From Parcubacteria group bacterium Athens0714_12 (GTDB lineage Bacteria; Patescibacteriota; Patescibacteriia; UBA2591; VMGY01): 35,599 nt of DNA. Both the position numbers and the translations under genes were made by a program. Under the pieces are notes generated by a model. That model was not told the origin of the DNA. It worked only from the letters and a program-made list of their open reading frames with translations, and ran no database searches. The DNA is taken from contig VMGY01000006.1 in NCBI GenBank assembly GCA_007378955.1, forward strand, positions 1 through 35,599, given 5' to 3'. Within the stretch, counting starts at the first letter, position 1. Each line of letters begins with the position of its first letter. Shown in pieces: positions 1 through 35,599 of the stretch.

Positions 1-2
1 TC

Positions 3-95
3 GACGCTAAATTAAATCAAGATCAAACTCGAAAAATTAATTTAAAACCTCACAAATTAGAATTAATTAAGTGTCAATTATGTTCGTGGACTTGA
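3..95 (+). CDS. C-terminal fragment of an unidentified protein (left-truncated)
   Basis: An open frame enters from the left edge and stops at TGA 93-95. The last residues read HKLELIKCQLCSWT, with a C-x2-C pair near the very end. The terminal Cys pair resembles a zinc-binding or HNH-type tail, but 30 residues are too few to name a family. A possible terminator follows at 114-142. It may be a real gene end, or a gene truncated by the rearranged DNA of element E1 just downstream. Confidence 0.3.
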   Translation, partial: DAKLNQDQTRKINLKPHKLELIKCQLCSWT

Positions 96-113
96 ACAGC
101 CCAACGATATAAC

Positions 114-142
114 AAAAAAGACCGCTACTTCGGGCCTCTTTT
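114..142 (+). terminator. possible rho-independent terminator
   Basis: An A-run/T-run hairpin with a short imperfect GC core (AAAAGACCG against CGGGCCTCTTTT) follows the open frame that ends at 95. The stem is bulged, so support is modest. Confidence 0.35.
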
Positions 143-153
143 CAGGAACTTTC

Positions 154-322
154 TTGATTAAAAGTTTTTCTTTTCTTCTTTCCGTTAAAACATGGTTCGA
201 GCCGATTGTTTTTCCGGGCTCTTTGGCGGTTTTGAAATCTTGCGGCGAAGCCGCTCCGAATTCGCGGGGGGTTCCTCGCCGCCGCAGGCGGCGAAATGCG
301 TTCGGACTAATTCAAGAATACT
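154..322 (-). repeat. scrambled, inverted fragments of a serine recombinase
   Basis: Read on the minus strand, this stretch joins pieces found elsewhere in recombinase genes. Around 210-230 is a block from the N-terminal domain (codons for TAKEPG). It is fused to a C-terminal block at 187-211 (codons for KTIGSNHVL), then to a copy of the A-rich recombinase leader at 154-186. The part at about 245-320 matches 21060-21130, downstream of the recombinase remnant. It is decayed, rearranged recombinase DNA lying head-to-head with the intact gene at 456. No functional gene is seen; short frames here on either strand are incidental. Confidence 0.7.
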
Positions 323-420
323 GCACCATTTCGGAAATAGCAAGCCAGAGGAAGCCGCCTCGCTTCGCTCGGCGGCCAGTTTGTATTGGATTTTCGGGGC
401 AAAAACGAATTGGCGATTTT
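323..420 (+). repeat. E1 left terminal inverted repeat (98 bp)
   Basis: This is an exact reverse complement of 1819-1916. It begins GCACCATTTCGGAAATAG and ends just before the A-rich leader of the recombinase gene. It contains the short GC hairpin that corresponds to the AERSEA codons of the recombinase C-terminus. Confidence 0.9.
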
Positions 421-455
421 GAAAGAAGAAAAGAAAAATTTTTAATCAAAATCAT

Positions 456-2021
456 ATGAAATACATACTTTACGCTCGCAAAAGCACTGAGGAGGATGAT
501 AGGCAGGTTTTAAGTATTGAAGCGCAGCTCGTAGAGCTGCAAGAGTATGCCGCCAAAGAAAAATTAGAAATTGTTGCCTCGCTGTGCGAGGCCAAAACCG
601 CCAAAGAGCCCGGCCGAATAAAATTCGCAGAAATGTTGTCATTGATTGAAAAAGGCAAAGCAGACGGAATAATCGCATGGCATCCAGATAGATTAGCTCG
701 TAACAGCGTTGATGGCGGAAAGATCATCCACCTTGTAGATCGCGGCTTGATTAAGTCCCTCAAATTTCCGACATTCTGGTTCGAAACGACACCGCAAGGG
801 TTGTTCATGCTCAACATTGCTTTCGGCCAATCAAAATATTTTGTAGACAATTTGCGAGAGAATGTAAAAAGAGGTTTGCGACAAAAGATACGAAACGGGG
901 TATGGCCTGGTTGGGCTCCGGTGGGCTATCTCAACAATCTTAAGACGAGAGGAGTAGATGTTGACCTTGAAAAATCTCGGTTGGTGAGAAAAGTTTTTGA
1001 ACTCTACGCCACCGGAGCATATCCACTCCACTCTCTCGCAAATTGGTGCGTTGAACACAAGCTCAAGGGCAACAAGAATAACAAAATATCCATAAGCAGT
1101 TTGCAAAAGATTCTACAAAATATTTTCTACATAGGACTCATGAAATTTAAGGGAGAAGTTTTTAAAGGAACTCATGAGCCGTTAATTTCAAAGAAACTTT
1201 TTGATACTTGTCAGGAAGTGATGGCTAAACGCGGCAAAAAGAAAGACATCCGCAAACATTATTTTGCTTTTCTCGGCCTAATGAAATGTGCTTCATGCGG
1301 CTGTGCCATCACCGCAGAAATCCAGAAAGGCCATCATTACTATCACTGCACGAAAAAGAAAGGGCCGTGCCAAGAAAAGCACTTTTTGCGAGAGGAAGCA
1401 CTAACCGAGCAAATCAAAAACTTCCTTCAAAAAATTTCTTTGTCGAGCCAAGACACCGAAAAAGTTTTGGCGGCGTTGGATAGCGAACAGGATAAAGCGC
1501 GAGAGGACGTACAAGCCGAAGTTAGCATTTTGAAAAAACAATTATCGCAGGTTGAGACAAAACTCCAAAAACTACTTGATGTCTATTTAGCTGATGCTTT
1601 ATCCACAGAAGAATACGCCGCCAAAAAACAGAGTTTGCTTTCCGAAAAATTGTCGTTGAGTGAGAAAATTACTGACTTTGAGCAAAATGGGTTGTCTTGG
1701 CTCGAACCGGCCCGTGAGTTCGTTTTGACCTTAAATCAAGCCGTTAAATTAGTTGAGAGTGAAAACAAAGAGGAAATGACAACATTTCTGAAAACAATCG
1801 GCTCGAACCATGTTTTAGAAAATCGCCAATTCGTTTTTGCCCCGAAAATCCAATACAAACTGGCCGCCGAGCGAAGCGAGGCGGCTTCCTCTGGCTTGCT
1901 ATTTCCGAAATGGTGCGGACGGTGGGAGTTGAACCCACAAGCCTTGCGGCACAAGATCCTAAGTCTTGCGCGTATTCCAGTTCCGCCACGTCCGCTTATG
2001 CTTGATTTAAAATTAGTTTAA
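456..2021 (+). CDS. large serine recombinase (E1), reading through antisense tRNA-Leu
   Basis: This is a site-specific large serine recombinase of 521 residues. The resolvase-type catalytic domain (about 1-145) has YARKS with nucleophile Ser10, Arg8, and DRLARN with Arg79 and Arg82. A recombinase domain follows (about 147-255), then a zinc ribbon (Cys278, Cys281, Cys298, Cys305) and a coiled coil (about 335-410). Residues about 455-486 are encoded by the right inverted repeat. Residues about 486-513 are the antisense translation of tRNA-Leu, so the natural protein probably has no meaningful sequence beyond about 485. The ATG at 456 aligns with the starts of its paralogues at 22986 and 25174. 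No Shine-Dalgarno is seen; the A-rich leader is shared with E3. It is very similar to E3 and more distant from E2. Confidence 0.93.
   Translation: MKYILYARKSTEEDDRQVLSIEAQLVELQEYAAKEKLEIVASLCEAKTAKEPGRIKFAEMLSLIEKGKADGIIAWHPDRLARNSVDGGKIIHLVDRGLIKSLKFPTFWFETTPQGLFMLNIAFGQSKYFVDNLRENVKRGLRQKIRNGVWPGWAPVGYLNNLKTRGVDVDLEKSRLVRKVFELYATGAYPLHSLANWCVEHKLKGNKNNKISISSLQKILQNIFYIGLMKFKGEVFKGTHEPLISKKLFDTCQEVMAKRGKKKDIRKHYFAFLGLMKCASCGCAITAEIQKGHHYYHCTKKKGPCQEKHFLREEALTEQIKNFLQKISLSSQDTEKVLAALDSEQDKAREDVQAEVSILKKQLSQVETKLQKLLDVYLADALSTEEYAAKKQSLLSEKLSLSEKITDFEQNGLSWLEPAREFVLTLNQAVKLVESENKEEMTTFLKTIGSNHVLENRQFVFAPKIQYKLAAERSEAASSGLLFPKWCGRWELNPQALRHKILSLARIPVPPRPLMLDLKLV
1819..1916 (+). repeat. E1 right terminal inverted repeat (98 bp), inside the recombinase gene
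   Basis: This exact reverse complement of 323-420 is also coding sequence for recombinase residues about 455-486. It ends in TGGTGC over the 3' end of tRNA-Leu. Confidence 0.9.
1911..1995 (-). tRNA. tRNA-Leu (anticodon TAG), CCA encoded
   Basis: The minus strand folds as a class II tRNA. The acceptor GCGGACG pairs with CGTCCGC, the anticodon stem CAAGA/TCTTG encloses loop CTTAGGA (anticodon TAG, reading CUA), a long variable arm is present, and the T-arm carries TTCAACTC. Discriminator A and a genomic CCA are present. The 3' end is overlapped antisense by the E1 recombinase frame. A consensus-like promoter lies just upstream at 2010-2038. Confidence 0.97.
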
Positions 2022-11153: not shown

Positions 11154-11219
11154 TCATTTTAAGCTGTAGGCGAAGAATCCCATTATTCTATGAGATACTT
11201 CGGCTTCGCCTCAGGATGA
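11154..11219. repeat. short dispersed palindromic repeat
   Basis: The ends are TCAT/ATGA, with inner arms AGGCGAAG (11168-11175) and CTTCGCCT (11204-11211). It resembles the common ATCCTGAGGCGAAG-type bacterial dispersed repeat. It supplies the TGA stop (11211-11213) of the neighbouring glgA gene. Confidence 0.55.
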
Positions 11220-12695
11220 AAGTGTTGAATAATTATTCAACACTTTCAATTTTTCGTAAACTTTGATATATTCTTTGGCTGATTTCTGCCAAGAAAAATT
11301 TTGACTCATGCCATTAATTTGCATCTTGCGCCAAATTTTTTTATTTTTAAAAATTAGCAGCGCTTTTTTGATAGTCTTTAATAATTCCCGGTGGTCATAT
11401 TTTTCAAAAACAAATCCCGTTGATTGAATATTGAATATTGAAAATTGAAAATTTTTCACGCTATCTTTCAAACCGCCCGTCGCCCTCACCAGAGGAATAG
11501 TGCCATAGCGCATAGAAATCATTTGTCCCAAACCACAGGGCTCAAAACGGGAAGGCATTAAAAAAATATCGCAACCGGCGTAAATTTCCTGCGCTAACTT
11601 GGCGTCAAATTTTATAAAAACTTTAATTTTTTCAGGATATTTTTTTTCAGCCCCTCTTAATGCGTTTTCATATTTTGATTCCCCTGTCCCCAAAAAAACC
11701 ATTTGGCAATTCAGATTCGTGGCTTCGTCCATAATTTCACTGATTAAGTCAATCCCTTTTTGTTCGGCTAATCTTCCTACTAATCCAAAAAGAGGAATTT
11801 TTGAATCTTGCTTTAAACCGCAAATTTCCTGCAAATATAATTTATTTTTTTCTTTTATTTCTAAATTTTTAATTGAATAATTATATTTGATTTTCGGGTC
11901 GTTTTCCGGATTGAAAATTTCCGTATCAATGCCGTTTAAAATTCCGCGAAGTTCGTTTTTTCTTTTTTGCAAAACATCTTCCAGTCCCGCGCCATATTCT
12001 TTGGTTAAAATTTCTTTAGCGTAATTAGGGCTGACCGTATTAATAAAGTCGCTATTCACAAGTCCGCTTTTCAAAAAATTAATTTTTTTATTTTGGTCAA
12101 TATTTTTTTCAGGAATAGGCAAGTCTAACATTTCGGAAATGTCTTTAGCTTCGTAATGGCCTTGGTATTCTAAATTATGGACCGTAAAAAGAGCGGCGAT
12201 TTTTTTATACCTTTTATCTTTCAACGACAAGCTTTTCAATAAAAATGGCAAAATGCCGACATGCCAATCATGGCAATGAATAACATTCGGCCACCAATTT
12301 AATGGTTCAAAAATTTCTAAAACCGACCGAGCAAAGAAAGTAAATCTTTTTGCTTCCCTTAAACTATCCTCCGGCATCGCGGATTTTTCAAAATAAATGC
12401 CGTTATCCCCCAAATATTTTTGGTGGTCAATAAAATAAACAGGGACTTCGCTTGCCGGCAAAAGACATTGATAAAGATCGAATTTTTCATCTTTGTTGTA
12501 AAAATTAATTTTAATTCCCTCGGCAATTTTTTCAAGCTGATATTTTTCTTCGTCAACAATTCCATATTTAGGAATGGCAATTCTAACATCAATGCCCAAT
12601 TTTTTTAAAGTTTTTGGCAAAGCGCCGATGACATCGGCCAAGCCGCCGATCTTAGCGATTGGATTCAATTCCGAGGCGACAAATAAAATTTTCAT
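11211..12695 (-). CDS. glgA: glycogen/starch synthase (GT5), copy 1
   Basis: This enzyme transfers glucose from ADP- or UDP-glucose to the end of an alpha-1,4-glucan. At 494 residues it has the GT5 N-terminal domain with KIGGLADV (from residue 15), CHDWHVG and TVHNLEYQG, then the GT-B C-terminal domain with LVGRLAEQKG and SRFEPCGLGQMISMRYG (acceptor/phosphate loop). Its start overlaps the GT4 gene by 4 nt. The last codons and the TGA stop come from the dispersed repeat at 11154-11219, so the original C-terminus has probably been altered slightly. A paralogue lies at 16163-17638. Confidence 0.95.
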   Translation of the reverse strand: MKILFVASELNPIAKIGGLADVIGALPKTLKKLGIDVRIAIPKYGIVDEEKYQLEKIAEGIKINFYNKDEKFDLYQCLLPASEVPVYFIDHQKYLGDNGIYFEKSAMPEDSLREAKRFTFFARSVLEIFEPLNWWPNVIHCHDWHVGILPFLLKSLSLKDKRYKKIAALFTVHNLEYQGHYEAKDISEMLDLPIPEKNIDQNKKINFLKSGLVNSDFINTVSPNYAKEILTKEYGAGLEDVLQKRKNELRGILNGIDTEIFNPENDPKIKYNYSIKNLEIKEKNKLYLQEICGLKQDSKIPLFGLVGRLAEQKGIDLISEIMDEATNLNCQMVFLGTGESKYENALRGAEKKYPEKIKVFIKFDAKLAQEIYAGCDIFLMPSRFEPCGLGQMISMRYGTIPLVRATGGLKDSVKNFQFSIFNIQSTGFVFEKYDHRELLKTIKKALLIFKNKKIWRKMQINGMSQNFSWQKSAKEYIKVYEKLKVLNNYSTLSS

Positions 12696-16162: not shown

Positions 16163-17638
16163 TTAATTTTGTTCGTGATGGCGCAATATTCGGCGATAAA
16201 GAAGAACGTATTTCTTTGCCGGAATTTCCCATGAATATGATTTTCTCATTCCCCTTCTGACTAATTTATTCCATACTTCCGGATATTTATAAGTTTCCAA
16301 GGCGCGGGTAATAGCGACTAAAAAATCTTTAGCGTCGTAAGTTTTAGCGACAAAACCATTGCCTTTATCTGTTTTAGGATTAAAGTCGGTAATCGTGTCG
16401 AATAACCCTCCTGTACCGTGAACAACGGGAACTGCTCCATACCTCAAGCTAATTAATTGCCCCAAGCCGCAGGGCTCAAAACGGGAAGGCATTAAAAAAA
16501 TATCACAGCCGGCGTAAATTTTAGTCGCGTCTATGGTATTAAATTCCAAAAGCGCGGCGATTTTTTTTGAATGCCTCTGAGAAATTTTTCTAAAAAACTT
16601 TTCATACCTTTTTTCGCCCGCGCCAAGCAAAACAAGCTGGACATCCAAATGCAAAAGCTGGTCAATAATTTCAATAATCAAATCAAATCCTTTTTGTTCG
16701 GCAATTCGAGAAACCATTCCCATTAAAGGCACATGGGAATCTTCTTCCAACTTAAACCATTTCTGTAAATAAATTTTATTTTTATTTTTATTATCCAAAG
16801 AATCAACGCTGTACTTTTGGATCAAACCAGGGTCAGTCGCCGGATTAAATTCTTTCTGGTCTATGCCGTTTATCACGCCGAATAATTTATATTTTCTCGC
16901 CTGCAAACTTTTGCTTAGTCCTTGCCCGTTATTTTCTTCTAAAATTTCTCTAGCGTATTCTTCGGAAACAGTATTAATAATATCACTATGAATAATCGCT
17001 CGTTTGGTAAAATTTATTTTTTCAATTTTATCTTTTTCATTAAAAAAGGGTAGAGTGGCATGACCGCTGTCTCTTTCATTTTCAGGAAATTCCCACCAAT
17101 TGCTGCCTAATTGGAAAATAAGATTATGAATTGTAAAAATAGTTTTGGTATTTTTAAATAAAGAATCTTTTTTATGTCTTTCTTTTAAAAATTGCGGGAT
17201 TAAACCGGTATGCCAATCATGGCAATGAATAATATCCGGCTTAAAATTCAAATGCTCCAACAATTTAAAACAAGCTAAATCAAAAACTAAAAATTTTTGG
17301 TTTTCATATTTAGTTTTATAAATGCCATTGGCGCCGTTAGAAAAAAAATCTGGCGACTCAATAAAATAAACCGGAAAATTTAATAATTTTTTATTCAGCC
17401 AAAAATTTATTTTTATCTTCGTGGTTTTATCAATGGTTAATTTAATATTAGAAGCGATTTTTTCCAATTCAAATTCTTCTTTATCAATCGCGGCATAAAG
17501 CGGGGTGGCAGCGATCGCTTTATGGCCTAATTTAGTTAATGCTTTGGGCAAAGCGGAGGCAACATCAGCTAAACCGCCTGTTTTGGAAAAAGGCGAAATT
17601 TCAGAAGAAATAGAAACTATTTTAATTTGTTTTGGCAT
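16163..17638 (-). CDS. glgA: glycogen/starch synthase (GT5), copy 2
   Basis: A second GT5 synthase of 491 residues with the same architecture as copy 1: KTGGLADV near residue 19, CHDWHTGL, TIHNLIFQLG, MVSRIAEQKGFD, and SRFEPCGLGQLISLRYG. The two copies share most motifs but diverge clearly elsewhere, so they are old paralogues with possibly different acceptors or donors. It is the first gene of the glucan part of the minus-strand cluster. Its ATG (17636-17638) lies within the CATA target duplication of a MITE-like insertion, so its leader and promoter context have been remodelled. Confidence 0.95.
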   Translation of the reverse strand: MPKQIKIVSISSEISPFSKTGGLADVASALPKALTKLGHKAIAATPLYAAIDKEEFELEKIASNIKLTIDKTTKIKINFWLNKKLLNFPVYFIESPDFFSNGANGIYKTKYENQKFLVFDLACFKLLEHLNFKPDIIHCHDWHTGLIPQFLKERHKKDSLFKNTKTIFTIHNLIFQLGSNWWEFPENERDSGHATLPFFNEKDKIEKINFTKRAIIHSDIINTVSEEYAREILEENNGQGLSKSLQARKYKLFGVINGIDQKEFNPATDPGLIQKYSVDSLDNKNKNKIYLQKWFKLEEDSHVPLMGMVSRIAEQKGFDLIIEIIDQLLHLDVQLVLLGAGEKRYEKFFRKISQRHSKKIAALLEFNTIDATKIYAGCDIFLMPSRFEPCGLGQLISLRYGAVPVVHGTGGLFDTITDFNPKTDKGNGFVAKTYDAKDFLVAITRALETYKYPEVWNKLVRRGMRKSYSWEIPAKKYVLLYRRILRHHEQN

Positions 17639-20184: not shown

Positions 20185-20318
20185 GTCTACATTAGTGTAG
20201 ACATTAATGTATAGTCTTGTCTGGACATGTCCAGAATAATCCAGACAAAAAAATTAATAATCAAAAAATGTGTAGTCCTGTCTTGACATGTCCAGACAGG
20301 ACTACACATTTTTTGATT
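20185..20318. repeat. cluster of palindromes and direct repeats
   Basis: Within 134 bp there are three palindromes: GTCTACA/TGTAGAC (20185-20202), TCTGGACATGTCCAGA (20220-20235), and one with 25-bp perfect arms (20259-20283 and 20294-20318). A roughly 24-bp unit (TAGTCyTGTCTkGACATGTC...) occurs twice in direct orientation, from 20213 and from 20273. The large hairpin ends in T-rich DNA and could terminate the isomerase transcript; the GGACATGTCC cores also look like dimeric protein-binding sites. Small frames across this region are not credible genes. Nothing else is seen up to about 20600. Confidence 0.65.
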
Positions 20319-20610
20319 AAAACAAATCAATCAATTAGCTCAAAAATTTTTAGAAATACTTACGATAAATCACTGCGCACTCCTTTGCATAGCATCGCAA
20401 CCTTGACAAAATTTTATCATATTTTTGTTTTAAAAAATTTTACTCCGTAGATTAAATTTATGTTATTTCCTCCATCCATTAACAAGCTCGGCGCATCCCG
20501 CCAAAAATAATAAAAAAATAATTTTTTTCGAGTTTACTAATAAACGATTTTTGGCTTAGATAAAGGCCAAAATCAATATTTTCTATTTTAAAAAATCATC
20601 AATATTTATC

Positions 20611-20707: not shown

Positions 20708-21133
20708 TTGCCCTTATCTTGGCAAGTTACCTGTCTAAATTTTCCTATGCTTTGGCAGGATATTATATTGTTTCGCGAATTAACGCACGACTTCAAAGCA
20801 GGGAAGAATTGGCTCCAACCCTTGCGGACGTGGATTTTAGAGACGAAAAAAGCCAAAAAATTGGCTTCTTCCGAAAACTACGAGAAAATGAAGCGGTTTG
20901 TTCAAAAACACGGAACGAACCCCAAATTTTTGGACAAATCTATTTCCTTTTCTTTTTGCCCGCCGTGGGATTTTGTGGCTTTGCGCCTTGCGCAAAGCCC
21001 GAATGCCGAGCGGCGAAGCCGCGAGGCAATCCTTTCATCAAACGGCGAAAGTTGCGATTGGTGGACTATTCTTAAGATAGTTCGGACGCATTTCGCCGCC
21101 TGCGGCGACGAGAAACCCCCCGCGAAATTCTGA
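20708..21133 (+). pseudogene. decayed 3' remnant of a serine recombinase
   Basis: The frame encodes a recognisable recombinase C-terminus (WLQPLRTWILETKKAKKLAS, then ENYEKMKRFVQKHGTNPKFL). It matches the WLEPAREFVL...ENKEEMTTFLKTIGSNHVL region of the genes at 456 and 22986. No catalytic domain or zinc ribbon is present upstream. After the recombinase part comes the conserved GC hairpin (about 21007-21025), a TGGTGGAC junction, and a trailing sequence also present inverted at about 245-320. This is a 5'-deleted element that apparently had inserted at a non-tRNA site. Confidence 0.75.
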
Positions 21134-21748: not shown

Positions 21749-21777
21749 AGTATATTATATCACAACATAAATGTCAA
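21749..21777 (-). promoter_or_regulatory. near-consensus sigma70 promoter
   Basis: Minus strand: TTGACA (21777-21772), a 17-bp spacer and TATACT (21754-21749), about 90 nt upstream of the 96-aa gene. The -35 box includes the TGA stop of the IS481 transposase frame. Confidence 0.7.
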
Positions 21778-22823
21778 GAGTTTGTACTCGTCCAGCACAT
21801 TTGAGACTCTGCGGCGGGTAATTTATTCATAATATATCGCAAAGGAGAAATAAGTCCAATCGACCAGTGTGGCCTCCTCGTGTTGTACCATAGGAGCCAA
21901 TCCATAAGTTTTTTGTTGAATGCCCCAATATCATAAGCGAGCAAATGCCTGTTTCTTGAAATGAACGCTTCTGAAAGAGTGCGGTTGAAACGCTCAATTT
22001 CACTTTGCATTTTTGGCGTTCGGGGATAGGCATGAAAATGAACAATATTTTCTTGGTTGCAATATATTTCAAAATGATCGGCGAATTCGCTTCCATTATC
22101 CGTTTGCACGTAAGCCAAAGAAAGAGGGGCGACTCCTTTGAAGGCATTCATAAAATCAACGGCTGTTTTTGAAGAATGCGAAGCATACGCATAAGCAAAT
22201 GCGAATTCGCTTTCACAATCAATACCGGTCAGGATATAGCGTTTGATGCCATTGGTGAATCTGATAATGGTATCGGCTTTGGCAAGTTGCCCCCGGTGTC
22301 CCACGCTGCGTAATTTCTTTTTATATTGCTTGGGTTTTCTCTCTATGAGATTGCCTGTTTTTCCAGACAAAGAATATCTGACCGGCTGAGGCAGCTTGCC
22401 TTGCTTCTTCAAGTCAACGAGCATACGGCCGACCGTTGAGGATGAATAGACGCCAATCTGATCTTCTTTCAATAGGACTGCGAGTTTTTCTTTGCCTATC
22501 TTTTCATGGGAGCGTTCTTCAAAAATCAGATTCTTCACTTCTTCGGGGATGGCGCGCGTTCGCCTTGTTTTGGGCGCGGTACTTTTGGGGTTCAAGGCTT
22601 CCAGCTTGCCATTGCCCTGATTCAGGATTTTCTGCCATCGGAAGAGAGTGGCTCGGGATACTTTGAACGCCTCTTTGGTCGCCGCCTCTCCATATTTATT
22701 CCAGAATGTGAGGATGCGGACGCGTTCTTGCGCTTTTTGGGTAATCATATCCCGAAAGCGTAGCGCGTCATTATATACTCCCACAATACCCCAGATACCT
22801 TTTGTTATATTATATTGTTGCAT
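21774..22823 (-). CDS. IS481-like DDE transposase
   Basis: A 349-residue transposase with N-terminal helix-turn-helix (GEAATKEAFKVSRATLFRW and the KSTAPKTRRTRAI linker) and an rve-type catalytic core. The acidic triad is readable as LTGIDCESEF, VQTDNGSEF and MQSEIERFNRT; the WYNTRRPHWSIGLISP signature follows. It belongs to the IS481/IS3-related group. It appears intact. The last about six codons and the TGA stop extend past the putative left end of the IS (about 21793), so termination uses flanking DNA. Its GC content is much higher than that of the neighbouring 96-aa gene, consistent with recent arrival. Confidence 0.93.
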   Translation of the reverse strand: MQQYNITKGIWGIVGVYNDALRFRDMITQKAQERVRILTFWNKYGEAATKEAFKVSRATLFRWQKILNQGNGKLEALNPKSTAPKTRRTRAIPEEVKNLIFEERSHEKIGKEKLAVLLKEDQIGVYSSSTVGRMLVDLKKQGKLPQPVRYSLSGKTGNLIERKPKQYKKKLRSVGHRGQLAKADTIIRFTNGIKRYILTGIDCESEFAFAYAYASHSSKTAVDFMNAFKGVAPLSLAYVQTDNGSEFADHFEIYCNQENIVHFHAYPRTPKMQSEIERFNRTLSEAFISRNRHLLAYDIGAFNKKLMDWLLWYNTRRPHWSIGLISPLRYIMNKLPAAESQMCWTSTNS

Positions 22824-22869: not shown

Positions 22870-22950
22870 AGCTTTCCGCCTCGCCGCTTCGCGGCTCGGC
22901 GGCGAAATTGAACGGAGTTTTGAAAGAAAAAATCAATTTTTGGTTTTGTA
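22870..22950 (+). repeat. E2 left terminal inverted repeat (81 bp)
   Basis: Exact reverse complement of 24358-24438. It begins AGCTTTCCGCCTCGCCGC and lies immediately upstream of the recombinase leader. Confidence 0.9.
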
Positions 22951-22985: not shown

Positions 22986-24524
22986 ATGAAATACATAATT
23001 TACGCTCGAAAATCAACAGAGGACGAAAACCATCAAGTTCTTTCTATTGAATCGCAACTCGCAGAGTTGCGGGAATTTGCCGCCAAAGAAAAACTTGAAA
23101 TTGTCGGTCCGACTTTCATCGAGACCAAAACTGCCAAAGAACCGGGGCGAACGAAGTTCGCCGAAATATTAAAACAAATAGAACAAAGTAGGGCCGATGG
23201 TATTTTATCTTGGCATCCGGACAGACTAGCTCGTAATTCCATTGACGGCGGTAAAATAATCCACATGGTAGATCGTGGCTTGATTAAATCTCTTAAATTC
23301 CCTACTTTCTGGTTTGAACCAACGCCGCAGGGATTATTTATGCTCCAAATTGCTTTTGGCCAGAGTAAATACTATGTAGATAATTTGAGAGAAAATGTAA
23401 TGAGAGGTATGAGGCAAAAAATAAGGAATGGAGTCTGGCCGCTTTGGGCACCGCTGGGATATCTGAATAATCCAACCACCAGAGGAACAGATGTTAATGA
23501 GAAAAAAATGACCTTGGTTAAAAAAATGTTTAAAGTTTATGCCACCGGCAATTACACTCTCAAAGAAATGTCTGAATGGTCTAAAAAGGTAGGACTCAAA
23601 AGCAATTTGGGAAATAATATTTCACCGGGCCAAGTTCAGACAACGCTTCAAAACATTTTTTACATTGGCTTGATGAAATACAAAGGAGAAGTTTTTGAAG
23701 GGAAACATAAACCTTTAATATCAAAGAAACTTTTTGATAGGGTTCAGGAAGTTTTGAAAGAGCGGGGCAAACCGCAGAAAATAAAACACAATTTTGCTTT
23801 TCTTAGGTTGATGAAATGTCCTTGTTCCGCCGCAATCACTGCTGAAAAGAAAATAAAACCAAGCGGCAGAGAGTATATTTATTATCGCTGTACTAAAAAG
23901 AAAGGGCCTTGTCTGGAAAAGCATTTTCTCCGAGAGGAAGCTCTTATTGAACAAATCAAAACCCATCTTCAAAAAGTTTCTTTGTCGAGCCAAGATACAG
24001 AAAAGGTTTTAGCTGAACTTGGAAAAGACGAACTGAAAGCCAAAGAACAAACGAAAATCATTGTTCAAAATCTCAAACAAGAATTAACGGAAATTGAAAT
24101 AAAGCTGGAAAAACTTTTGGATGTTTATCTGGCAGAAGTAATTTCTACCGAAGAATACACTGCCCGAAAACAAAAAATCCTAACTCGGAAGTTAGAATTA
24201 CAGGAGAAAATAAGAGATTTTGAGCAAAAGGGATTGTCTTGGCTCGAACCAGCTCGGGAATTTGTTTTGAAGCTGAATTATGCGGAAAAATTGAGGCGGT
24301 CGGAAAATTATCAAGAAATGAAGACATTTCTGAAAAATATCGGCTCGAACCACATTTTACAAAACCAAAAATTGATTTTTTCTTTCAAAACTCCGTTCAA
24401 TTTCGCCGCCGAGCCGCGAAGCGGCGAGGCGGAAAGCTTGACATATCCGAAAGTGTGGACTCAGAGGGATTCGAACCCTCGGCCTCAGCAATGCGAATGC
24501 TGCGCTCTACCAACTGAGCTATGA
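22986..24524 (+). CDS. large serine recombinase (E2), ending inside antisense tRNA-Ala
   Basis: A 512-residue paralogue of the gene at 456. The catalytic domain has YARKS (Ser10), HPDRLARNSIDGG and NGVWPLWAPLGYLNN. A recombinase domain, zinc ribbon and coiled coil follow. The first zinc pair reads KCPCSAAI (C-x-C) where E1 has C-x2-C, a one-residue deletion that may weaken metal binding; the second pair (YYRCTKKKGPC) is intact. Residues from about 491 (RDSNPRPQQCECCALPTEL) are antisense tRNA-Ala, including the stop. The full catalytic domain makes it the other complete copy beside E1. There is no Shine-Dalgarno; the start aligns with its paralogues. Confidence 0.94.
   Translation: MKYIIYARKSTEDENHQVLSIESQLAELREFAAKEKLEIVGPTFIETKTAKEPGRTKFAEILKQIEQSRADGILSWHPDRLARNSIDGGKIIHMVDRGLIKSLKFPTFWFEPTPQGLFMLQIAFGQSKYYVDNLRENVMRGMRQKIRNGVWPLWAPLGYLNNPTTRGTDVNEKKMTLVKKMFKVYATGNYTLKEMSEWSKKVGLKSNLGNNISPGQVQTTLQNIFYIGLMKYKGEVFEGKHKPLISKKLFDRVQEVLKERGKPQKIKHNFAFLRLMKCPCSAAITAEKKIKPSGREYIYYRCTKKKGPCLEKHFLREEALIEQIKTHLQKVSLSSQDTEKVLAELGKDELKAKEQTKIIVQNLKQELTEIEIKLEKLLDVYLAEVISTEEYTARKQKILTRKLELQEKIRDFEQKGLSWLEPAREFVLKLNYAEKLRRSENYQEMKTFLKNIGSNHILQNQKLIFSFKTPFNFAAEPRSGEAESLTYPKVWTQRDSNPRPQQCECCALPTEL
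24358..24438 (+). repeat. E2 right terminal inverted repeat (81 bp), inside the recombinase gene
   Basis: Exact reverse complement of 22870-22950; it codes for the recombinase segment beginning LQNQKLIFSFKTPFNF. Confidence 0.9.
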
Positions 24525-24528
24525 GCCC
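24456..24528 (-). tRNA. tRNA-Ala (anticodon CGC), CCA not encoded
   Basis: The minus strand gives acceptor GGGCTCA/TGAGTCC (one G-T pair), a D-arm with AGCTCAGTTGGTAGAGC, the anticodon stem CAGCA/TGCTG with loop TTCGCAT (anticodon CGC, reading GCG), and T-arm GAGGGTTCGAATCCCTC. Discriminator A is followed by CAC rather than CCA, unlike the Leu and Arg tRNAs here. Element E2 lies directly at this 3' end. A TATAAT box on the minus strand (24572-24567) may be its promoter. Confidence 0.96.
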
Positions 24529-24712: not shown

Positions 24713-25077
24713 AAATTTTTTTGCTTTTTAACAATCTTTTTGATTGTTTTTGCTAATTTTTTGTACTTTTTTCTATGAAAATCATACCTAAAATTTAACA
24801 CTTCTCCGCAAATTGGACACTTTCCTCCTGTTTTTTCAGCGCATTTATGGCAAATGACAAATTTATTATGAAATATATGGTGTTTATGCCATTTTATACC
24901 TGACGCAAACCCATCTTTAATTCTTCTTTTCCAATAATTTTCAATTTTATCATTTTCCGCGCGAATATCTCCTAATAACTTCTCTTTTATAAACTTTTCT
25001 TGTTTTGAAGCGCTTGGACATTCAAGAGGTGCCCTTAAAAAGAAAGATAAATAACAAATACACCTATCACAAATCGC
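24700..25077 (-). pseudogene. 5'-truncated gene for a Cys-rich, basic protein
   Basis: A continuous minus-strand frame of about 125 codons without any ATG runs from the junction with element E3 (about 25077) to TAG 24702-24700. It reads CDRCICYLSFFLRAPLECPS, then a charged helical region (EKLLGDIRAENDKIENYWKR), then CHKCAEKTGGKCPICGEVLN and a Lys-rich tail. The CxxC...CxxC spacing indicates a zinc ribbon or treble-clef. Codon use matches the host. The N-terminus seems to have been replaced when E3 inserted or rearranged. I do not recognise the family; nucleic-acid binding is a guess from the zinc motif and basic tail. The rest of 24529-24699 shows no gene. Confidence 0.7.
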
Positions 25078-26307
25078 TCGGCGACTAATTCGTATTCAAT
25101 TTTGGGGGTAAAAACGAATTGGCGATTTTGAAAGAAGAAAAGAAAAATTTTTAATCATTAACCCAACAAAACTATGAAATACATACTTTACGCAAGAAAA
25201 AGCACCGAGGAAGACGATAGACAAGTTTTAAGCATTGAAGCGCAACTCGTAGAGTTGCAAGAGTATGCCGCCAAAGAAAAATTAGAAATGGCGTATGGCC
25301 CGGCTGGGCTCCGGTAGGATATCTTAATAATGCAAAGACGCGAGGAGTGGGTATTGACCCTGAAAAATCTCCGTTGGTAAAGAAAGTTTTTGAACTTTAC
25401 GCCACTGGAAATTATCCGCTCCATTCTCTCGCAAATTGGTGCGTTGAGCATAATCTTAAAGGCAACAAGAACAATAAAATTTCAATCAGTAGTTTGCAGA
25501 AGATACTACAAAATATTTTCTACATTGGATTGATGAAATTTAAGGGAGAGGTTTTTGAGGCAACTCACGAGCCGTTAATTTCAAAGAAACTTTTTGATAC
25601 GGTTCAGGAAGTCATGGCGAAGCGTGGAAAGAAGAAAGACATCAGAAAACATCATTTTGCTTTTCTTGGCTTATTAAGCTGCGGATATTGCGGTTGTGCC
25701 ATTACTGCTGAAATTCAAAAAGGCCATCACTACTACCACTGTACAAAAAAGAAAGGGCCGTGCCAAGAAAAGCATTATTTACGAGAGGAACAATTAACCG
25801 AACAAATTAAAAACTTTCTTCAAAAAGTTTCTTTGTCGAGCCAAGATACAGGGAAAGTTTTGGCGGCGTTGGATAGCGAACAAGAACAAGCTAAACAACA
25901 AGCAAAAGTTAAAGTTGAAAATTTAAAAAAGCAGTTAAGCCAAGTGGAAACAAAATTAGCAAAACTACTCGATGTGTTTTTGGCAGATGCTTTATCCACA
26001 GAAGAATACGCCGCCAAAAAGCAAGAATTTATAACGCAAAAAGTTAGTTTGAAAGAGGAAATCACCGACTTTGAACAAAAAGGGTTGTCTTGGCTCGAAC
26101 CGGCTCGTGAGTTCGTTTTATCCCTTAATCAAGCCTCAAAATTGGTAGAAACGGAAAACAAGGAAGAAATGACAACGTTTCTAAAAAACATCGGCTCGAA
26201 CCATATTTTACGAAATCGCCAACTGATTTTTTCGCCCAAAATTCCGTTCAATTTGGTTGCCGAGCGAAGCGAGGCGAGCCACCAAAATTTGACTTTTCCT
26301 TACTGGT
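25074..26307 (+). mobile_element. E3: decayed serine-recombinase element at tRNA-Arg
   Basis: It has the same plan as E1 but is damaged. The left part (25074-25133) is a shortened inverted repeat clearly related to the E1 left repeat (shared GGCGATTTTGAAAGAAGAAA). The recombinase has an internal deletion, and its 3' end abuts tRNA-Arg. The inverted partner inside the gene (about 26208-26270) is only partly matching, so the repeat pair has diverged or been exchanged. Confidence 0.6.
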
Positions 26308-26333
26308 GCCCTCGAGAGGAGTCGAACCTCTAA
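25174..26333 (+). pseudogene. serine recombinase (E3) with internal deletion and frameshift
   Basis: The ATG at 25174 begins MKYILYARKSTEEDDRQVLS exactly as in E1. At about 25285, however, the sequence jumps from KEKLE to the NGVWPGWAPVGYLNN region. About 325 nt of the catalytic domain are missing, including the DRLARN arginines, and the frame shifts by one. Short AGAAAT-type homology at the joint suggests slippage or end-joining. The remainder is open from the recombinase domain through an intact zinc ribbon (CGYCGC, HCTKKKGPC), the coiled coil and the C-terminus, ending in antisense tRNA-Arg. It could give a DNA-binding protein lacking catalysis if translated from the ATG at 25347. Confidence 0.85.
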
Positions 26334-26379
26334 TCTTCTCCTTAGGACGGAGTTGCTTTATCCATTAAGCCACGAGGGC
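26304..26379 (-). tRNA. tRNA-Arg (anticodon CCT), CCA encoded
   Basis: The minus strand gives acceptor GCCCTCG/CGAGGGC, a D-arm with GGCTTAATGGATAAAGC, anticodon loop GTCCTAA (anticodon CCT, reading AGG), a T-arm with GAGGTTCGACTCCTC, discriminator A and genomic CCA. The outermost anticodon-stem pair is a mismatch. Element E3's recombinase frame enters it antisense. A promoter is at 26422-26450. Confidence 0.96.
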
Positions 26380-32431: not shown

Positions 32432-32461
32432 AGGCCGAAAAGTTTTAAAACTTTTCGGCCT
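32432..32461. terminator. 30-bp perfect palindrome after the toxin gene
   Basis: AGGCCGAAAAGTTT and its mirror form a perfect palindrome. On the plus strand it is followed by TAAAAATG rather than T's; on the minus strand it is followed by a T-run. It is thus a better terminator for transcription coming from the right, although it may also stop the toxin transcript. Confidence 0.6.
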
Positions 32462-32468
32462 AAAAATG

Positions 32469-32516
32469 ATTAACCCTGTCTTGAATCACCCTCTTTAACG
32501 GGCGAGCGCCGAAAAT
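32469..32516 (-). repeat. 48-bp exact copy of a clp gene segment
   Basis: Identical, in the same orientation, to 34142-34189 inside the Clp ATPase gene, where the minus strand encodes IFGARPLKRVIQDRVN. The surrounding bases differ, and no other Clp homology is seen here. It may be a relic of a lost clp copy, a recombination scar, or a segment whose plus-strand transcript would be antisense to clp mRNA. Confidence 0.85.
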
Positions 32517-34036: not shown

Positions 34037-35599
34037 TCAAAGTTCTTTTCCCTTAACCACCCTAATCTCCCCGCCTTTTTCCAAAACAGCAATATCCCTT
34101 CTTTTAAGTTCGCCTTTTAAGAGATAATCCGCCAAAGAATTATTAACCCTGTCTTGAATCACCCTCTTTAACGGGCGAGCGCCGAAAATAGGGTCATAAC
34201 CCAATTCAACCAATTCTTCTATCGCTTCATCCGTGGCGCGCAAACTGATGCCTTTTTTATCCAATTGCTTTTGAAGTTTAATTAAAAGCAGATGGGCGAT
34301 TTGTTTTATTTCTTCTTTAATTAAAGGCTTAAAAACTATTATTTCATCAAAACGATTTAAAAATTCAGGCAGAAAATAAGATTTCAATTCTTGATTTAGG
34401 AGGTCTTTTTTTATTTCAATAATATCTTTATTATTTCTGATTTCTTCTTGGATAAAATTAGAGCAGGCGTTAGAAGTGCCGATTAAAATAATATTGGTAA
34501 AATCAACTGTTTTGCCGGAGCTGTCGGTTAATCGGCCGTCTTCCATTACTTGCAAAAATAAATTTAAAATATCAGGATGAGCTTTTTCAATTTCATCAAG
34601 CAGGAGCAGGGAAAAGGGTTGTTTTTTTACCGCTTCGGTTAAATAGCCGCCCATCTCCGAACCACGATAGCTGATGGGCGCGCCGAGCATCCGGTCAATT
34701 GAAGATTTTTCCTGGTATTCGCTCATATCTAAACGAATCATATTTTTTTCAGAGCCGAAATAAATTTCGCCGATGGCTTTTGCCAATTCCGTCTTTCCCA
34801 CGCCAGTCGGGCCTAAAAATAATAAATTGGCAATCGGCCTCTTTAATTCCCTTAATTCCGTTCTCGCTCTTCTCAAGGCGGCGCTGACCGCTATTACTGC
34901 TTCTTCCTGGCCAATAATTCTTTGGTGGATTCTTTTTTCCAAATTAAGCAATTTTTCACTTTCTTTTTCCGTAATTTTAGTCAAAGGAATTTTTGTTTTT
35001 CTTGAAACCAAATAAGCGGCATCTTCTTCTTTAATTAAAGAGTTCTTGCCTTTTGCCTGATTAACATAAACCGAAGCCTCTTCTAAAAGCGAAATTCCTT
35101 TTTCCGGCAAATTCTGGTCTGGCAAATAACGGGAAGTTAATTCCACTATCTGCTCAATCGCTTTATAAGAAAAATAAATCTGATGGCGCGCTTCTAAAGC
35201 GCCGACCTTTGATTCCAATATCTGAATCGCCTGATTTTTTTTCGGCTCTTCTATAACGTTTTTTTCTAAAAAATTGCCTAAAGCGGAATTTTTTAAAACT
35301 CTCTGGTAATCGGCTGCTGAGCAAGTGCTGAATAAAATTAAATATTTATTATTCAAATAAGAATAAATAATATCAGCGACATCAAGTTCGCCGCTCCTGC
35401 TTTTTACTCCCACGATATTGGAAATATCTTCAATAAATAAAATAATATTTCCCGCTCTGGCAACTTCATTGATTATCGCCTTTAATTTTGTTTCAATGGT
35501 CGTGCTTTCGCCGCCTGCCAAACTGCCTATATCCAAACTAATTAAACGTTTGTCTTTTAAAATTTCCGGCACTTCTTCTTCCACCATTAATTGGGCGAT
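34037..35599 (-). CDS. clpC: Clp/Hsp100 AAA+ ATPase (ClpC/ClpB type), 5' end outside the window
   Basis: The C-terminal about 520 residues of a two-ring AAA+ unfoldase; the frame remains open to the right edge. The end of AAA-1 is present, with an atypical Walker B (IILFIEDISN). AAA-2 has Walker A GPTGVGKT, Walker B LLLLDEIEKAHPD, sensor 1 IILIGTSNA and the C-terminal YDPIFGARPLKRVIQ sensor-2 motif. The linker between the rings is short, without the long ClpB coiled coil, favouring ClpC/ClpA. A clear (I/L)GF ClpP-binding loop is not visible, however, so partnership with ClpP is unsure. Forty-eight bases of the sensor-2 region are duplicated at 32469-32516. Confidence 0.9.
   Translation of the reverse strand: MAQLMVEEEVPEILKDKRLISLDIGSLAGGESTTIETKLKAIINEVARAGNIILFIEDISNIVGVKSRSGELDVADIIYSYLNNKYLILFSTCSAADYQRVLKNSALGNFLEKNVIEEPKKNQAIQILESKVGALEARHQIYFSYKAIEQIVELTSRYLPDQNLPEKGISLLEEASVYVNQAKGKNSLIKEEDAAYLVSRKTKIPLTKITEKESEKLLNLEKRIHQRIIGQEEAVIAVSAALRRARTELRELKRPIANLLFLGPTGVGKTELAKAIGEIYFGSEKNMIRLDMSEYQEKSSIDRMLGAPISYRGSEMGGYLTEAVKKQPFSLLLLDEIEKAHPDILNLFLQVMEDGRLTDSSGKTVDFTNIILIGTSNACSNFIQEEIRNNKDIIEIKKDLLNQELKSYFLPEFLNRFDEIIVFKPLIKEEIKQIAHLLLIKLQKQLDKKGISLRATDEAIEELVELGYDPIFGARPLKRVIQDRVNNSLADYLLKGELKRRDIAVLEKGGEIRVVKGKEL

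Follow-up and report, generated by a model that had tools for sequence, protein, structure and literature searches.

A small element directed to tRNA genes in Patescibacteria, moved by a large serine recombinase and carrying an internal inverted attP

The window analysed here is the whole stretch of 35,599 nucleotides of contig VMGY01000006.1 from Parcubacteria group bacterium Athens0714_12. Close to its start lies a unit, U1, in which a recombinase gene is enclosed by two inverted arms and its reading frame continues through the right arm into a tRNA gene (Table 1). The 98 nt at 323-420 were found to be an exact inverted copy of 1819-1916 (100% complementary, spacing 1398 nt), which is far beyond chance. 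The right copy is read in the frame of the recombinase ORF (456-2021), and the minus-strand tRNA-Leu gene has its 3' end in the final 6 nt of that copy (1911-1916, TGGTGC). The initial annotation had reported a perfect 98-bp inverted repeat built from the recombinase 3' end and the tRNA end, and both statements were borne out. The U1 protein displayed the Pfam domains Resolvase, Recombinase and Zn_ribbon_recom (E 8e-22, 2e-14 and 3e-7), and its closest PDB chains were the A118 integrase and SPbeta YokA. These matches identify the predicted protein as a large serine recombinase, as had been proposed; the accompanying comment that serine integrases do not usually come with long inverted repeats was also right. 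The codon signature in the B arm was weak (differences by codon position 0.27/0.22/0.32; first 100 codons, 0.14/0.06/0.41), which is consistent with constraint at the DNA level.

Upstream of 323-420, inverted pieces of the recombinase gene are followed by a cargo module. The left end of U1 was located on another contig of the same genome, C8, at 91404 (L113:2401), at the tail of that contig; contig C8 and the window thus meet inside the U1 cargo module. The interval L113:2401-2522 holds X' together with a copy of recombinase nt ~93-120. The U1 cargo ORF (L113:2627-3256, minus strand) encodes 209 aa, and the Pfam comparison gave no match for it. The X arm at 235-322 includes the T-loop mimic GTTCGGACTAATTCAAGAATACT.

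Table 1. Features of U1 and of the two further units in the window.
Feature	Position	Strand	Remarks
5' part of U1 cargo module (M1)	1-153	-	Remainder and left end X' at C8:91404-92514 (L113:2401-3515)
Inverted copy of recombinase leader C (421-449)	154-182	-	97% complementary
Inverted copy of recombinase segment A (1791-1817)	186-212	-	100% complementary; present in nearly all relatives
Inverted copy of recombinase segment H2 (about 588-607)	214-234	-	Inverted-repeat comparison
X arm, middle site of U1	235-322	+	94 nt at 98.9% to L113:2401-2494 (left end X', contig C8)
GC core of internal inverted attP, U1	323-324		Compared with filled and empty sites, L013 and L064
Left B arm (rcB), U1	323-420	+	Exact inverted pair with 1819-1916
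Leader C with purine-rich ribosome-binding stretch	421-449	+	Also in cargo module
Large serine recombinase (predicted), U1	456-2021	+	521 aa; frame continues through B into tRNA
Segment A (CGGCTCGAACC, T-arm-like)	1791-1817	+	
Right B arm, U1	1819-1916	+	C-terminal recombinase codons and last 6 tRNA nt; inverted-repeat comparison
tRNA-Leu(TAG), U1 target	1911-1995	-	
GC crossover core, U1 right junction (attL)	1915-1916		At tRNA acceptor end
Older recombinase C-terminus remnant	20762-20965	+	Directly before U2 left end; 33% to aa 399-464
Left end X', U2	21059-21126	+	87% complementary to 261-328
Left B arm, U2	22870-22950	+	Perfect 81-nt pair with 24358-24438
Recombinase, U2	22986-24524	+	512 aa
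Right B arm, U2	24358-24438	+	Perfect 81-nt pair with 22870-22950
tRNA-Ala(CGC), U2 target	24455-24528	-	
Decayed left B arm, U3	25074-25129	+	86% to U1 arm
Recombinase, U3, internally deleted	25174-26333	+	
tRNA-Arg(CCT), U3 target	26304-26379	-	

The extent of the mobile unit became apparent from the alignment of near-identical elements, which match back to about -300, diverge, and realign over ~100-130 nt at -900 to -1200. This far block repeats, in inverted form, the stretch that directly precedes the left B arm (88/88 in L019). The recombinase is therefore flanked by the inverted B arms and the cargo gene by a second inverted pair, X, often 80-270 bp long. An X pair ending at the core was observed in 30 of the 49 loci having at least 1.5 kb upstream, the longest being 273 bp at 99.3% (L148), and none was seen in some relatives. 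By a motif scan, most complete elements have a single X- and a single X+ with equal numbers of changes, and the overlap between B and X arms was confined to the core (4-7 nt in the loci compared). The X and B pairs meet at the GC core, so that the middle site forms an intact attP, in the orientation opposite to that of the junctions. Its X half resembles the T-arm half of a tRNA, GTTCG lying about 20 nt away from the core, and the likeness extends to distant members; GTTCG, as a T-loop mimic, was present at nearly all loci.

The left outer end (X') and the right one (B) are unlike each other, and the order of parts read from the alignments is D.X'-[cargo gene]-rcX'.GC.rcB-[recombinase]-B.GC.tRNA. 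The whole constitutes an integrative element of ~3 kb moved by the large serine recombinase, and the reported 98-nt repeat is the B pair of U1. The outer part of the right arm 1819-1916 is the attL half-site. The left arm 323-420, judged by its position in the aligned elements, lies mid-element as part of the internal attP and is not an outer end. The proposal of a transposon-like unit ending in duplicated sequence thus failed, because the outer ends differ as expected for attL and attR. A single-unit inverted-repeat transposon was ruled out on the same grounds, and because each repeat pair lies half inside.

The crossover could be located at L013 and L064, where a tandem duplication of the target has left a filled and an empty site side by side. 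At L013 the empty site reads ...cattaaacatGC.GCCTAGAGGG, the left junction ...cattaaacatGC.AGTATTC and the right junction ...CCTAAATGGTGC.GCCTAGAGGG. At L064 the corresponding sequences are ...ctctgggcGC.CCCTGGCAGG, ...ctctgggcGC.AGTATTC and ...tttctggtGC.CCCTGGCAGG. In both cases attL and attR are each half element and half target, and GC alone is common to the empty, left and right sites, which indicates a 2-bp core, as in serine integrases. The bases shared before X' at left ends are (T)GC, and other targets differ at this position (TGGCTC at Asn, TGGCGG at Ser). Insertion therefore takes place by a 2-bp crossover, usually GC, at the tRNA acceptor end, and the element provides a new ACCA 3' end. 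Outside tRNA genes, the right flanks of L012, L022, L045 and L057 carry a conserved (C/G)GAACCTAT(T) motif, and to judge from this motif these sites form a second target class.

Relatives were drawn from a scan of a genome-contig collection, from members of the same order and from a sample of 380 genomes across the phylum, 64 of which contained a U1-type recombinase at E 1e-120 or better. The counted set comprised 87 distinct complete genes with at least 40% recombinase identity and enough flank, duplicates being removed. Inverted B arms were found in 77 of these 87, perfect in 43, with a median identity of 100%, and they persist down to about 42% recombinase identity. In a first survey with looser scoring the median arm identity within an element was 98%, and that between elements was far lower. 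By these comparisons the arms are near-identical inside each element while diverging between elements, and the initial suggestion that homogenisation or selection for pairing underlies their identity was judged sound. Its inference of recent formation did not survive the survey, which also rules out a recent local duplication.

The arrangement, which the initial annotation had advised looking for in related genomes, is conserved in dozens of them. The 3' end of a tRNA gene abuts the right arm in 60 relatives and represents 16 isotypes, the usual overlap being six bases. All 60 tRNAs are convergent with the recombinase, and no inverted isomer, for which the initial annotation had also advised looking, was seen among the surveyed relatives; phase inversion of an invertible segment was ruled out by this count (0 against 60). 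At L047, from position 1632 onward, the abutting tRNA looks interrupted, perhaps by an intron. Three relatives with less than 40% identity adjoin tRNAs and lack doubled arms, so tRNA targeting appears to predate arm doubling. Close to the core the arms of some elements are not perfectly matched (L013 90/101, L024 85/97), and the L013 arms are mosaic, the inner 71 nt being identical and the outer 30 nt different. The hosts, according to their records, are mostly Patescibacteria; other labels belong to MAGs of Omnitrophota, Deltaproteobacteria, Nitrospira, Thermodesulfovibrionales and Marinimicrobia, each of which may be mis-binned. In the single-contig genome G192 one locus (L146, G192:C1:390000-403500) holds two complete elements facing each other at neighbouring tRNA clusters. 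A search for a vehicle identified none: it gave one weak match in viral contigs, and the plasmid and phage matches were all below 60% identity.

Most elements carry a single main cargo frame, on the strand opposite to the recombinase. Cargo matches included a sodium:solute symporter, a Na/Ca exchanger, SAICAR synthetase (PurC), HisG, methyltransferases and PD40, and most cargo was unmatched. A recurrent N-terminus, MNQKGF(A/I/V)NI..., which from its residues looks prepilin- or signal-anchor-like, was found in the cargo of L013, L017, L022, L025, L027, L073 and L089 in front of unrelated C-termini. In the pairs L017/L018 and L019/L041 the flanks are 93-97% identical and the cargo is unrelated; exchange of cargo by recombination between the flanks of resident elements is plausible. 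L037 has no cargo, and only the X-X' hairpin is left. No conserved second gene or excision factor was detected among the elements compared, the cargo being variable, and the annotated cargo yielded no replication gene. An integron-like array was ruled out, since most loci have one X-/X+ pair per element, each element has one cargo module and the recombinase is of the serine type. In the cargo 3' end of L014, L019, L029 and L059 a shared hairpin block (CTGAAATTC...GAATTTCAG) lies between the cargo and H1, and is perhaps a terminator or an older insertion.

The cargo modules of the U1-like clade also contain short inverted copies of recombinase nt ~94-120, ~138-157 and 1334-1360 and of the leader, with sharp and fixed limits. 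The segments H1, H2, A and C are 95-98% identical within an element against 68-86% between elements. Such co-variation would be compatible with base pairing within one strand; shared protein binding is another possible account. As a universal feature the J/H segments were ruled out, being absent in the loci L146, L148 and L149 (45-50%), all of which have cargo.

Besides U1, the window carries two further arm-bearing units, U2 at a tRNA-Ala and a decayed U3 at a tRNA-Arg. An rve-domain transposase gene (21774-22823) sits within U2, and the insertion sequence to which it belongs has probably cut into the left B arm and the X arm. The recombinase remnant at 20762-20965 beside U2 reads as the trace of serial insertion at a single tRNA. 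The left arm of U3 now matches the right arm of that unit imperfectly, and over just 31 nt. A fourth unit, at the start of contig C8, has a perfect 99-nt pair around a recombinase that is 46% identical. On the same contig, at C8:77588-77759 (L112:2089-2260), a tRNA-Arg(GCG) is followed by a solo X half-site with a displaced ACCA, the X remnant and this ACCA falling in C8:77588-77740, an arrangement that marks it as the likely scar of a lost element. Elsewhere in the window, palindromes with hairpins of 31 nt cluster around TGTCTGGACATGTCCAGA at 20206-20319, two gene stretches (11494-11632 and 16428-16566, in ORFs 11211-12695 and 16163-17638) are 72% similar, and a 62-nt direct repeat, 94% identical, occurs at 32455-32516 and 34128-34189.

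The recombinase and the crossover place these elements among the large serine integrase elements of the phage A118, SPbeta and phiC31 type, with which they share the catalytic, recombinase and zinc-ribbon domains, the 2-bp core and the unlike attL and attR; the anatomy is apparently new. They differ in being only ~3 kb long, in using many tRNA 3' ends, in carrying usually one cargo gene, and in possessing an intact inverted attP inside together with two long inverted-repeat pairs. An integrated copy of a serine-integrase element is usually left without an intact attP, although this is not strictly defining; contrary to this, the integrated elements described here keep the attP-like rcX'.GC.rcB. 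The yeast 2-micron plasmid likewise is a small molecule on which a recombinase gene lies between inverted repeats that hold two identical recombination sites; its recombinase is a tyrosine recombinase and it forms inversion isomers, whereas the present elements are integrated and no isomers were seen.

A different resemblance is that to CTXphi and integron cassettes, in which inverted att copies could fold into one double-stranded site: here the X and B inverted att copies, meeting at the core, are able to form one duplex site. The recombinase, in contrast, is of the serine and not the tyrosine type (XerC exchanges one strand pair in CTXphi), phage and replication genes and a cassette array are absent, and the single-strand stage is a proposal. 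The att copies of CTXphi also remain on the chromosome (PMC3089051). SE-6945 and SE-6283, strand-biased circularizing elements with tyrosine recombinases (PMC9345347), are likewise small and integrative, with a possible importance of one strand, and differ from the present ones by their recombinase. Islander genomic islands at tRNA genes mostly use tyrosine integrases and long direct repeats (PMC4383910); they too target the tRNA 3' end, which the element restores, but the core is 2 bp here. Full-text searches of the open-access literature returned no description of elements with the present anatomy, and this small mobile element, widespread in Patescibacteria, is apparently undescribed. The element, its tRNA target, the crossover and the internal attP are considered correct as described with a probability of roughly 0.75, a figure that excludes the folding step discussed next.

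The existence of the arms is best, though tentatively, explained if the element passes through a single-stranded stage and folds into a duplex attP, for which we would give clearly less than even odds. That a serine recombinase element actually travels as one strand, as a dumbbell with an attP stem and with cargo and recombinase loops, is slightly more doubtful. According to this proposal, a single-stranded stage would occur, for example upon uptake by transformation, and one strand would fold, X' pairing with rcX' and rcB with B. The X and B stems would then stack at the core to give a double-stranded attP, leaving the cargo and recombinase genes as loops, and a step exchanging or copying one strand only would follow. 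Such a step would account for the survival of the middle attP, the need for matching arms and the single orientation found. The serine recombinases known so far act on duplex DNA and cleave both strands of each partner, four in all. The folded-strand route would therefore need an extra replication or recombination step, and four-strand cutting of a folded single strand would generate hairpin-capped chromosome ends unless such a step follows. We know of no serine recombinase acting on folded ssDNA. The imperfect arms near the core of L013 and L024 also argue against folding, as perfect pairing is not always kept, so do the relatives in which no X pair was seen, and gene conversion, which could be an alternative cause of arm likeness, counts against it as well. 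A precedent for folding is provided by CTXphi, whose inverted attP1 and attP2 form a double-stranded site in ssDNA (PMC3089051).

Alternatively, a double-stranded circle would contain two inverted attP sites, the rejoined and the middle one; as either could integrate, insertions would arise in two orientations. Those facing away from the tRNA would be transcribed from its promoter, be hot and re-excise, and the convergent ones would be quiet and persist; the repeat would act as an orientation latch, or as an amplification device as in the 2-micron plasmid. This explanation requires only ordinary serine-integrase chemistry, both attP copies are sequence-identical in many elements, and in the unseen orientation the tRNA would indeed transcribe into the recombinase. 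However, with identical sites both orientations should occur unless selection acts strongly against one of them, and the 60 abutting tRNAs all show the same one; moreover, the orientation of the cargo module was constant in all M1s scanned, and the lack of a conserved excision factor and of a replication gene among annotated cargo speaks against a circle, which we consider unlikely. Passive duplication, with arms homogenised by gene conversion or fork template-switching and a middle attP without a role of its own, would fit the mosaic arms of L013, which resemble conversion tracts, and the lost arm identity of the decayed U3. Against it, arms are retained by 77 of the 87 relatives, even where recombinase identity falls to about 42%, which implies strong maintenance, and the 20-29-nt matches of H1, H2, A and C inside unrelated sequence are not easily produced by conversion, so that this account appears quite unlikely. 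A regulatory role, either through complementary 5' UTR and 3' ends of the recombinase and cargo mRNAs (a panhandle RNA) or through repression of both genes by the recombinase bound at the middle attP, is suggested by the position of that site between the two divergent genes and by the leader C common to both, but it leaves unexplained why the tips of the arms fall on the GC core and at the end of the tRNA, and no convincing promoter was seen at the middle site; it must be rated as improbable. Finally, several contigs, including C8 of the U1 genome, start or end within an arm, as an assembly or amplification artefact might produce. The chance of this, a worry also raised in the initial annotation, is negligible, as the same structure was found in four single-contig genomes (G030, G132, with short arms of 33 nt, G161 and G192) and in many independent assemblies from many assemblers.

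In Patescibacteria, whose genomes are tiny, few ways of acquiring genes have been described, and the element is a compact carrier of single swappable genes. Its tRNA-directed recombinases, with natural attB and attP at hand, are of value as tools. The internal attP and the two matched inverted-repeat pairs raise the question of whether a serine recombinase uses folded ssDNA. If this is true, the single-strand route would be a mechanism new for serine recombinases, and the element would stand beside integron attC and CTXphi integration as their equivalent among serine recombinases and would capture genes in Patescibacteria.
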